Part shown: one piece after another, positions 13,089-38,837 of the stretch
Layout of the letters: every line of letters starts with the position of its first letter
Position numbering within the stretch: position 1 is the first letter of the stretch
DNA from: Akkermansiaceae bacterium
GTDB taxonomy: Bacteria > Verrucomicrobiota > Verrucomicrobiia > Verrucomicrobiales > Akkermansiaceae
Assembly: GCA_015061985.1 (NCBI GenBank)
Contig: SUVN01000005.1
Coordinates: forward strand, 43,163 to 107,162
Reading direction: 5' to 3'
DNA: 64,000 nt
Translations under genes and position numbers: made by a program
Notes under the pieces: generated by a model
What the model was told of the DNA's origin: nothing
Database searches by the model: none
What the model saw: the letters and a program-made list of their open reading frames with translations, nothing else

Positions 13089-14300
13089 TTATGAGCCTGT
13101 TAGCGTGGGTGTTTCCGGCTCCTTCATCCTCCTTGCCAGAAAACCGGCGGCCACCACGGCCAGTCCTCCGATGAGGAATACAGCCTGCGGGCCGCCCGTC
13201 AGCTCCCAGATGACACCGCCCACGATACCATAGCCGATGGAGGCAACGTGGTTGATGGCAATACCCGTGTAGATGCACGGCGTAATCTCCTGCTTACGGT
13301 CGCCGCAGATGCGGGCAATGTAGGTGGTTCGCGCCATACCCATGGCGAAGAGCAGGTTGTCCAGAACAAAGCAGGTGCCCACAACCCCGACGGCCCAGCC
13401 CAAAGGCAGCAATCCCGGAGCAAAGGCATATGCCAGACACAGGACGGAAAGCGCCACGCTGTCGAATATCGTGACTCTGCGCTCGCCGAAACGCTTGATG
13501 CTCCAGCCGATGAGTGGCTGAGTAAACAGCCCGATGATACCGGCAATGAGCAGAATGAAGCCGATACCGGACGGTTGTTGCCCCAGCGTGCTGACCATCA
13601 GCCAGTAGCCGAACGTAAGGTAAAGCTGCTTTCGGATGCCGTGCAGGATTTCAAGCCCGTAATAGACGCTGTACTCTCGGCGGATGATGAAGCTTTCTTT
13701 CCAGGAGCGTCGGGCAGGGAATTGTGTGCCGCGTACGCAGCACAGCAAAGCCGCAGCCAGCAACATCATAATTCCCATGACAGCGTAATCCACAGAGAAA
13801 TCATTGTTGATTTTCCACTTGATGCCTATGTAGAGCGCCCCGGTCAGGGTGGCAGCCGTTCCCAGTGCCCGCATTTGCCCCAGCCGCAGACTGCGGTTTT
13901 CCGGGCGAGCTGTGTGCATGACGATGGAGTCAATGGTGCCGATGAGTATGTGAGCTCCAAGGCTGGCAGTAATAATCCACAGACTCAGTGTCAGCAGTCC
14001 GCAGTCGGCTTCCAGCTGCATGAATCCGAATGCCCCGACAGCCGCCAGAATGCATGCCAGAATGGTCAGCTTAATCTCATCCAGAAAGAAAAGGGCGCAG
14101 ATGACTACAAAGCAGAGAATCCCCGGCAGCTCGCGCGGAAGCTCCAGAAAGCCGCGCTGCCCGGCATCCAACCCCTGAACATCTCTCAGATAGTTGCTGA
14201 AGAGTAAGTCCCAGATACCGTGTCCCAGCTGTGCCAGAAAGATGGCTGCCAGCAACAGAACCATGACCTTGCGGATGCGGGGGGATTTGTCAGTGCTCAT
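13089..14300 (-). CDS. Major facilitator superfamily transporter
   Basis: About 12 hydrophobic segments and MFS-like N-terminus (QLGHGIWDLLFSNYLRDVQGLDAGQRGFLELPRELPGILCFVVICALFFL). Confidence 0.7.
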   Translation of the reverse strand: MSTDKSPRIRKVMVLLLAAIFLAQLGHGIWDLLFSNYLRDVQGLDAGQRGFLELPRELPGILCFVVICALFFLDEIKLTILACILAAVGAFGFMQLEADCGLLTLSLWIITASLGAHILIGTIDSIVMHTARPENRSLRLGQMRALGTAATLTGALYIGIKWKINNDFSVDYAVMGIMMLLAAALLCCVRGTQFPARRSWKESFIIRREYSVYYGLEILHGIRKQLYLTFGYWLMVSTLGQQPSGIGFILLIAGIIGLFTQPLIGWSIKRFGERRVTIFDSVALSVLCLAYAFAPGLLPLGWAVGVVGTCFVLDNLLFAMGMARTTYIARICGDRKQEITPCIYTGIAINHVASIGYGIVGGVIWELTGGPQAVFLIGGLAVVAAGFLARRMKEPETPTLTGS

Positions 14301-14386: not shown

Positions 14387-14538
14387 AGTATTTTTAATGC
14401 GATGTACAGCAAAAAAAACGATTTTATAGACTGCTAGACACATAGAACGAAAAAAACAGGCAAAAAAAAAACAAACAAACGTTATTGCATAAAGATTACA
14501 AATATTAGTGTTTTAAAAAGCATCGCATTAAAAATGCT
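14387..14538. repeat. Inverted-repeat pair (18 nt, 1 mismatch) enclosing 116 nt upstream of an acyltransferase gene
   Basis: Left AGTATTTTTAATGCGATG (14387-14404), right CATCGCATTAAAAATGCT (14521-14538); read directly on both strands. Confidence 0.9.
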
Positions 14539-14554
14539 GTATAGTACCCGAGAC

Positions 14555-15562
14555 ATGGAAAATACGGGGGCGAAAAGAAATGAATGGATTGAATCGGTGC
14601 GTGTATTGGCTATGTTGCTGATAATTATGTTTCATATGCGTTCATCAGACCTGCCTGTTGCAGATGAGCATTGCATTTCATCAATAATACTATCGTTCAT
14701 GTTTCAACCTGCAGCATCCCTTTTTGTCTTTTTCTTCCTTGCCGGTTATTTCACGCGAAAAAACATGGCTGTCAAGAAATGGATGATGCGACTTGTGGCG
14801 CTGCTTGTTCCTTATTTTATATGGAATGGACTTTATTCATTCGGGCTCAATGACGAAGTAACATGGGGAAGAGTATTTGGTATTGGTTCCGGTTCTTTCA
14901 TATGTGCTGATTACCCGTTGTGGTTTGTTTTAGCAATTATATACATGACTGCTTTTTGGCCAATATGGCGATTTTCTCCGGAAATTGCTGCTGTTGTATG
15001 TCTCGTTATGTCCTTATATGGTAACAGCTGGCATTGCGAACTTCTGACACATTTGCCTATGCCTATTCCTACTGATTTTTTAGTTTTTCTTTGTGGTGTA
15101 TGTGCCGGGAGGTTTTCCTTAAATGTGTTGCAGAAGGTGTTTGTATATCTTTTTGTTCCTCTATTGTTTATTGTCATTATAGGTAAATATTATTATTCAT
15201 TACCATATTTGGCCATAGTTGCTGCTGCTTTATTTTTGTCCTTTATGGCATGTGTTTCAAGAGTATGCCCTTGCGTAGTCAGTTTTGCGGCAAAATATAG
15301 TCCAGCCGTTTTTTTGAGCTATGCTACCCATGCCGGCATAATCTATTTATTGGGTAAACTTTATCAAGCATATTTTACTCAGTATGCAATTTTGGTGCGT
15401 GAAATGTATATACCATTCACTTTTTTGATTTTTATGTTTAATGTATTTGCATTAAGGTTAATGTACAGACATATTCCTTGGATCCTTCCGTTTATTGCAC
15501 ATTCCGGGAAATTCTTTTGGCAGAGTAAACAAAATGCAACACGCGTTGTCGATTCCGTATAA
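14555..15562 (+). CDS. Acyltransferase 3 family membrane protein
   Basis: Polytopic; RNEWIESVRVLAMLLIIMFHMRSSDLP start and VFFFLAGYFTRKN are typical of the acyltransferase 3 (OafA-like) family. Confidence 0.75.
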   Translation: MENTGAKRNEWIESVRVLAMLLIIMFHMRSSDLPVADEHCISSIILSFMFQPAASLFVFFFLAGYFTRKNMAVKKWMMRLVALLVPYFIWNGLYSFGLNDEVTWGRVFGIGSGSFICADYPLWFVLAIIYMTAFWPIWRFSPEIAAVVCLVMSLYGNSWHCELLTHLPMPIPTDFLVFLCGVCAGRFSLNVLQKVFVYLFVPLLFIVIIGKYYYSLPYLAIVAAALFLSFMACVSRVCPCVVSFAAKYSPAVFLSYATHAGIIYLLGKLYQAYFTQYAILVREMYIPFTFLIFMFNVFALRLMYRHIPWILPFIAHSGKFFWQSKQNATRVVDSV

Positions 15563-37353: not shown

Positions 37354-37384
37354 AAAGCCGCACCCAATAACGGGTGCGGCTTTG
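37354..37384. terminator. Hairpin terminator, copy A of an identical 31-nt pair
   Basis: AAAGCCGCACCCAATAACGGGTGCGGCTTTG, 12-bp stem, followed by A/G-rich sequence; identical at 38784-38814. Confidence 0.85.
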
Positions 37385-37482
37385 AAAAAAAAGAGGGTTC
37401 ACATGTTGCTGCTGATCATGTAGTTACAGGTACAGGTTGTATTGATAACTTTCTGTAAACGATACCATGGATAAGTAATTCA

Positions 37483-38565
37483 TCATGCGATAAATAATTT
37501 CCTGAGTTTGCTGCTGTGCTGGCGAATGATTTTGCCTGCACCTTGGACGACGAGTGCCAGTACTAATGAGTAAATGAAACATATCACAACTTTTGCCCAT
37601 TCGATGTCCACAACTAAATCAGGAATCAGTTGATCTGCGCAAACAGTGATGGCGCGATGACTCAGATATAAGGGGAGGCTTAAAGAACCTAAAAACAGAC
37701 ATATTTTGTTTGCGTAAATTCGTCTGTCAGAAACCTGGTCGGAAAAAGAAATTGCAATGGCGAGCAGACCTGCAATCAGGGCAAATCCATGCAGCCAGGT
37801 TTGGTGCAACGCGGCAATTATGCCGACCAGACCTATGCAGCAATATTTGATTGATGTGACAAAAAAAAGACCTAATCGGGAAAGATTAAATTGGCTGAAG
37901 GATTGAATCGCCTGATATGCAGTAGCTCCTATCAACAACTCACCCACGGCTCTCAGATTTCCCTCAAAAGTGAAGCCGTACCATGCATATACTCCATTGA
38001 GCTTTCCGTGGTATTGGCATAAAAAACCGCAGATAATTACGCCTGCAATAAATAGTATGGGGTGCGTGCCAAATCTCACAAGAAGAGGGTAAACAATAAT
38101 TAGCCCTATCAGCATGGATGATATATACCAGGTAGCACCATTGAAATCTACATAAGAAATACTAATGCCTGTCATCTTTAAGGGCAAAATGCCATTTATC
38201 ATTGTTTTAGCAGCAGTTGCAATAAGCTGAAAATCAAGTGGCCTGGATAAAAGGAATATTGCAATGGTGGTTATGGTTGCCACCAACAATTCCGGGTAAA
38301 ATGTTGATAATTTGCGTAAAATAAATGCGCCGGTTCCAGGGACGGTATTGCCTTTCATTCTCGCCCTTGAAATGGAATTCATGGTCAAATATCCCGTCAG
38401 CAAAAAGAAACAATCTACGGCAAGAGCTCCGTTTGGCAGAACGCTCATGTGAGAAAGAAATACCATAACCGCAAAGAAAAAACGCCATAGCTCTATCTCA
38501 GGGTTTCTAATGCCTCTGAGTTTGGCAGCGGGGAGAGACACTTCGTTGGCTCTGTTCTTGTTCAT
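37483..38565 (-). CDS. Acyltransferase 3 family membrane protein
   Basis: Polytopic; GIRNPEIELWRFFFAVMVFLSHMSVLPNGALAVDCFFLLTGYLTMNS. Confidence 0.8.
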   Translation of the reverse strand: MNKNRANEVSLPAAKLRGIRNPEIELWRFFFAVMVFLSHMSVLPNGALAVDCFFLLTGYLTMNSISRARMKGNTVPGTGAFILRKLSTFYPELLVATITTIAIFLLSRPLDFQLIATAAKTMINGILPLKMTGISISYVDFNGATWYISSMLIGLIIVYPLLVRFGTHPILFIAGVIICGFLCQYHGKLNGVYAWYGFTFEGNLRAVGELLIGATAYQAIQSFSQFNLSRLGLFFVTSIKYCCIGLVGIIAALHQTWLHGFALIAGLLAIAISFSDQVSDRRIYANKICLFLGSLSLPLYLSHRAITVCADQLIPDLVVDIEWAKVVICFIYSLVLALVVQGAGKIIRQHSSKLRKLFIA

Positions 38566-38583
38566 CTCACGTGTGTATATCTG

Positions 38584-38745
38584 ATTTCAAATGCGATGTA
38601 AAGAAAAATAACCACTAAATACTTAAAATAGTACATCATTTCATTAAATCAGGTGTATAGAAGATTGATTTTTCGTGACTCTACCTCGTTATGCTTCTTT
38701 CTGTTATCAGCACATCGCATTTCAAATGCGATGTGCTGATAACAG
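38584..38745. repeat. Repeat cluster upstream of the second acyltransferase: IR pair enclosing 114 nt plus a 45-nt near-perfect palindrome
   Basis: AATGCGATG (38590-38598) and CATCGCATT (38713-38721); palindrome CTGTTATCAGCACATCGCATTT-C-AAATGCGATGTGCTGATAACAG (38701-38745). Confidence 0.9.
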
Positions 38746-38783: not shown

Positions 38784-38814
38784 AAAGCCGCACCCAATAA
38801 CGGGTGCGGCTTTG
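38784..38814. terminator. Hairpin terminator, copy B of the identical 31-nt pair, downstream of pgm
   Basis: AAAGCCGCACCCAATAACGGGTGCGGCTTTG. Confidence 0.85.
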
Positions 38815-38837
38815 GGAAAAGGCGGGTTTTCTTATCC

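Follow-up and report, generated by a model that had tools for sequence, protein, structure and literature searches.

The stretch of DNA analysed here (the window) comprises 64,000 nucleotides (nt) of contig SUVN01000005.1 from an Akkermansia species, whose 2.37-Mb draft genome (GCA_015061985.1, here G000) is 90% complete. Two acyltransferase-3 genes of the window are each preceded by a pair of inverted cores, which we read as putative promoter switches and call locus 1 and locus 2. At locus 2 the cores AATGCGATG (38590-38598) and CATCGCATT (38713-38721) enclose a putative invertible segment of 114 nt (38599-38712). Its predicted target is the minus-strand gene at 37483-38565, which encodes 360 amino acids (aa) with an Acyl_transf_3 domain (E=3e-16). 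At locus 1 the 9-nt cores lie at 14396-14404 and 14521-14529 with a putative invertible segment of 116 nt between them (14405-14520), upstream of a plus-strand gene with an Acyl_transf_3 domain at 14555-15562. Position 14555 is the likely start of this gene because the listed ATG at 14534 is upstream of the -10-like box. An MFS transporter gene (13089-14300, minus strand) on the opposite side of locus 1 is a possible alternative target.

The coordinates and spacings of these cores given in an initial annotation of the window are exact at both loci. The conserved inner flank, placed there on the gene-distal side at locus 1 and on the gene-proximal side at locus 2, was also recovered, and the extended flank AATGCGATGTAMAGMAAAA is found at loci 1 and 2 only. 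A chance origin had been called unlikely, and indeed the 9-mer occurs five times in the window compared to 1.04 expected, a count reached by 0 of 100 shuffles.

Predicted promoter layout of the two loci

At locus 2, a fixed -10-like hexamer TATACA (38574-38579, minus strand) lies outside the segment. It is followed by the gene-proximal core CTGATT-TCA-AATGCG (38581-38595), whose outer arm is degenerate in the site alignment, and by a -35-like hexamer TTTACA (38597-38602, minus strand) at the end of the segment. Read towards the gene, the order is TTTACA-17-TATACA-8-ATG, and locus 2 is predicted to be ON. The gene-distal core, CGCATT-TCA-AATGCG (38716-38730), has a central triplet which matches that of its partner in the direct and not in the inverted sense. 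A third copy of the core at 38725-38733, absent from the initial annotation, makes this distal end a 45-bp palindrome (38701-38745) with perfect 22-nt arms and a 1-nt centre.

At locus 1 the gene-distal core consists of a degenerate outer arm followed by TTT-AATGCG (14387-14401), and the -35-like TGTACA next to it (14403-14408, minus strand) points away from the acyltransferase gene. The gene-proximal core CGCATT-AAA-AATGCT (14524-14538) is followed by a fixed -10-like TATAGT (14540-14545, plus strand). Here the order is AAAGCA-17-TATAGT, which would become TGTACA-17-TATAGT after inversion, and locus 1 is predicted to be OFF. The initial annotation had proposed related invertible segments in opposite orientations. 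This proposal is supported, with the reservation that the triplets of locus 2 disagree and that this locus may no longer invert. Inversion as such is retained as well, in a changed form: a -35 half-promoter, and not a whole promoter, would flip.

In both acyltransferase genes the ATG is located 8-9 nt past the predicted -10 (window 14540-14557 and 38563-38579), which suggests leaderless transcripts. An identical 37-nt terminator-like sequence is present at window 37354-37390 and 38784-38820, flanking the locus 2 acyltransferase gene together with its switch. Furthermore, a decayed-looking element with unequal triplets at L160:2136-2285 (G000:C38, about 62.6 kb) adjoins DNA with 73% identity to a portion of the acyltransferase gene of locus 2.

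Paired cores, central triplets and the split promoter

Genome-wide, the AATGCGATG/CATCGCATT inverted pair was searched with 100-130 nt between cores and found four times (114-124 nt), compared to zero hits with the reversed-pattern control. Three of the four pairs precede acyltransferase-3 genes, which agrees with the link to surface-modification genes suggested in the initial annotation. We found neither a scatter of cores without spacing constraint nor a lack of association with surface genes. The aligned ends of 14 pairs, which we call C-type, each read CGCATT-NNN-AATGCG, with ATGTACAGNAAA adjoining on the inner side of one end. The central triplet varies by locus, with TGA, TAC, AAA, TGG, TCA, GCC and TAG being found, and is equal between partners in the inverted sense in 13 of the 14 pairs (shuffle mean 3.1, maximum 10). 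Among neighbouring exact cores less than 600 bp apart the triplets match in 28 out of 30 cases (shuffle mean 1.5, maximum 11), and in 0 of 50 for neighbours more than 600 bp apart.

Conservative site-specific recombination by Cre, FLP and lambda-type recombinases follows an overlap-identity rule. Inverted-sense identity of the triplets is what this rule predicts and therefore points to site-specific recombination. Inverted arms and an overlap identical in both partners, as expected for tyrosine recombinase sites, are thus seen in 28 of 30 and 13 of 14 pairs, with locus 2 as the C-type exception. We propose that the triplet is an address by which partner sites would be paired.

The cores are also part of a promoter. 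Since the last two -35 bases of the C-type pairs are fixed by the search pattern, the clean test is a set of 20 independently chosen pairs from A. muciniphila-like genomes, whose cores carry CGGATT..AATCCG (G-type). In 12 of these 20 pairs a TTGAC-like -35 (at least 5/6 bases) is positioned exactly 1 nt inside the core (0.24 in shuffled sequences; at most 2 at other offsets), and in 17 of 20 a TA is positioned exactly 1 nt outside (mean of 2.4 at other offsets). The C-type pairs have the same layout with TGTACA, TTTACA or TTGACA and TATACT-like boxes. In both motif variants, the core is the 17-nt spacer between a -35 (TTGACN or TGTACA) inside the segment and a -10 (TAnnnT) outside on the gene side, so that an inversion would exchange the -35. 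Ends with a TA box face an open reading frame (ORF) of at least 150 aa in 13 of 16 cases, ends without it in 7 of 16 (Fisher P=0.03; counted by eye).

At both window loci the core immediately precedes a -10-like box, at locus 1 for both divergent genes. This would also be expected of a fixed regulatory operator, in which CATCGCATT is a transcription factor site or belongs to an alternative promoter ahead of a TATA-like -10 and nothing inverts. Such an operator requires neither a locus-specific triplet mirrored in a partner site, nor inverted pairing at a constrained distance, nor a -35 found mostly at a single end of each pair, and the G-type counterpart is experimentally invertible (PMC13343947). 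We consider this explanation improbable. Even less probable is the insertion, ahead of surface genes, of a miniature mobile element (a miniature inverted-repeat transposable element or cassette) bounded by terminal inverted repeats. A short segment with inverted ends and copies at several loci is what it would leave, and the locus 2 gene cassette is found in G000 only, without a homologue in any other genome or species among 77 Akkermansia genomes. However, the inner sequences are unrelated between loci, and the outer flanks prolong the inverted repeat, with neither direct repeats nor target-site duplications. Moreover, the locus 1 element has a homologue at the homologous place in the relative G007 (G007:C45), with conserved ends and a diverged interior, and no empty sites with direct duplications were seen in close relatives.

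For locus 2 alone, a further explanation is compatible with a switch system and stands about evenly balanced with an intact switch: the locus could be a decayed relic locked in the ON state, where recombination would lead to nothing or to the deletion of the -35 segment. Its triplets (TGA/TCA) are the sole mismatch among the 14 C-type pairs, the top-strand triplets are in direct orientation and the outer arm of the proximal core is degenerate. The mismatch, which like the palindrome was not part of the initial annotation, indicates that locus 2 is perhaps locked ON or prone to deletion, and the segment may be lost rather than inverted. On the other hand, one central mismatch might be tolerable given that the distal site is almost perfectly palindromic, and the draft assembly could have one wrong base here.

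Motif variants and recombinase candidates

The published inverton motif of A. muciniphila is CGGATT..AATCCG; these invertons flip, and their orientation correlates with capsule ON/OFF at cps1 (PMC13343947). The motif was rediscovered as inverton group 138, which is enriched near PEP-CTERM genes (PMC11892184). G000 does not match this strict motif: 24 of its 27 CGSATTNNNAATSCG cores are CGCATT..AATGCG, one apparently inside a tRNA gene. Another characteristic of the Akkermansia inverton system, inverted sites paired over short distances in front of surface genes, is present. The G000 elements and the A. muciniphila invertons have in common the genus, a core of two 6-nt arms around a 3-nt centre, surface and PEP-CTERM proteins as targets and, by our measurements, the split-promoter geometry. 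They differ in that one arm base is changed symmetrically in G000 and that the spacing is shorter. Judging from these sequence features, the G000 elements work like the Akkermansia inverton system in a shifted dialect. The module of the initial annotation is real and belongs to a known class that is not confined to two loci.

Among the 77 genomes, A. muciniphila-like ones have CGGATT almost exclusively, and G-type genomes contain for example 58, 69 or 85 cores. C-type genomes are G000, G007, G008, G009, G024, G034, G090, G093, G094 and G096, and most of the other genomes are at background core count. The lone CGCATTACGAATGCG of many genomes was rejected as a switch and is background, as by sequence context it appears within a tRNA gene (L122:2452). 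The highest count in the genus sample is in G027, with 108 CGSATTNNNAATSCG cores of which only 11 are C-type.

The inverted pair was found in 4 of 36 other genomes of the same genus and in 0 of 22 genomes of the same order from other genera. Contigs with the pair pattern belong to several Akkermansia metagenome-assembled genomes (goat cecum, goat colon, roe deer rectum) and to one such genome of Akkermansiaceae; the few remaining matches are close to the chance expectation.

A trans-acting recombinase or regulator encoded outside the window had been suggested initially, and a recombinase in that position is supported. Serine recombinases (PF00239) were not detected at E<=0.001 in G000, which makes a tyrosine recombinase most likely by exclusion, and 19 tyrosine recombinases (PF00589) were found in the genome. 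A tree was built from 62 tyrosine recombinases of G000, two other site-rich genomes and two site-poor ones; none of its clades was restricted to site-rich genomes and at the same time covered all three of these, and no core site with up to one mismatch was present within the fetched flanks of the G000 enzymes. XerA-like integrases of the integrative and conjugative element type (L009/L010) were rejected as a global invertase, being present in 9 of the 77 genomes and absent from the site-rich G004, G017, G081 and G024. Seven of the G000 tyrosine recombinases (L018, L019, L021-L025) are paralogs, about 54-89% identical, which form an expanded group and are candidate mobile or inverting enzymes.

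Proposed switch mechanism and multi-gene clusters

In the mechanism we propose, a trans-acting recombinase, most likely of the tyrosine type, would recombine inverted CGCATT-NNN-AATGCG cores that share a triplet, and the segment between them (114-124 nt in the four exact G000 pairs) would flip. The core would serve as the 17-nt spacer of a sigma-70-type promoter, with the -10 fixed outside the segment beside the gene and the -35 carried at one segment end (TTGACN in the G dialect; TGTACA, TTTACA or TTGACA in the C dialect). One orientation would join -35 and -10 and thus be ON, and the other would put a poor hexamer in the -35 place and be OFF. Mostly envelope genes would be switched, namely those of acyltransferase-3 proteins, glycosyltransferases, PEP-CTERM proteins and autotransporter-like peptidases. 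We think it very probable that the elements belong to a genus-wide Akkermansia inverton system of split-promoter switches with triplet-matched cores.

Several points weigh against this interpretation. While the sites, their triplet matching, the promoter geometry, the neighbouring genes and the dialect can be read from the sequence itself, flipping, expression states and the type of recombinase are inferred here from it. No C-type element in opposite orientation was found between species, and locus 1, the one homologous locus for which a comparison was made, is oriented identically in G007. The triplet rule is broken at locus 2. The C-type -35 score is inflated, as its CA is fixed by the search pattern, and TGTACA has only 4/6 bases. 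A dedicated recombinase was not found, and the sole integrase checked by genus-wide distribution did not fit. In favour of the interpretation, C-type cores are enriched near contig ends (5 of 23 less than 250 nt away, P=5e-6), where assembly forks caused by two coexisting orientations would place them; this clustering could also come from strain mixtures.

The class of element is known; its recognition sequence is changed here, and its layout is one that we did not find described. The literature searched contained no description of the split-promoter switch, the triplet address or the multi-gene clusters described below. Priority for the promoter layout is uncertain given Jiang et al. 2019, who are cited as the source of the CGGATT..AATCCG motif and reportedly described a promoter motif.

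Acyltransferase-3 genes are the targets at L004, L005, L006 and L031, and at L028 a pair of glycosyltransferase genes has one member on each side of the element. Further downstream genes encode a hexapeptide transferase, PEP-CTERM proteins, S6-peptidase-like autotransporters and a sugar transferase. Besides single switches there are three G000 clusters of paralogous MKKTII.. exported-protein genes, L115 (C26:40631-50034), L120 (C41:9713-15269) and L121 (C52:13546-17098), whose proteins have weak PEP-CTERM-type matches below the curated cut-offs. Nearly every gene in them has a core with the cluster's own triplet, mostly with an intact TATACT. The TGTACA -35 is present at exactly one core per cluster, and most others have GCAGCA, GCAGCT or similar hexamers (GCAGCW-type). 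The active copy is oriented towards the silent ones in C41 and C52, so each inversion could pass the -35 to another gene.

We lean towards a wider interpretation, in which Akkermansia species possess one address-coded half-promoter system. A mobile -35 would be passed among genes that own only a -10, and three-letter addresses would separate dozens of switches and clusters under a shared recombinase, whose recognition base changed between lineages. The clusters would express one surface protein at a time. From background knowledge, the invertible promoters of Bacteroides (Mpi capsule loci) similarly comprise many dispersed segments at surface genes controlled in trans, whereas there the segment contains the whole promoter and Mpi belongs to the serine recombinases, a family not found in G000. 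Shufflons (R64 Rci) and the Mycoplasma vpma/vsa systems, again from background knowledge (for vpma see also PMC2268961), resemble C26, C41 and C52 in having silent gene clusters, a shared site and one expressed copy. In contrast to these, the moving part in Akkermansia would be a -35 half-promoter, with an own triplet per cluster.

With such addresses, a list of Akkermansia invertons would become a readable code, where a matching triplet indicates recombining partners, the -35 position the ON gene and a mismatched triplet a stuck locus. Moreover, a lineage with a one-base motif shift would provide a natural contrast with which to search for the recombinase of this important mucus-dwelling gut genus and to learn how this enzyme recognises its site.

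Two further elements have unusual surroundings. At L053:2960-5398 (G007:C66) the element is flanked by two similar glycosyltransferase genes, both pointing away from it, as if toggling between them. At L119:2302-2459 (G000:C40) the right core falls within the beginning of an ORF similar to a membrane transporter, and inversion would alter the N-terminus of this ORF or truncate it.
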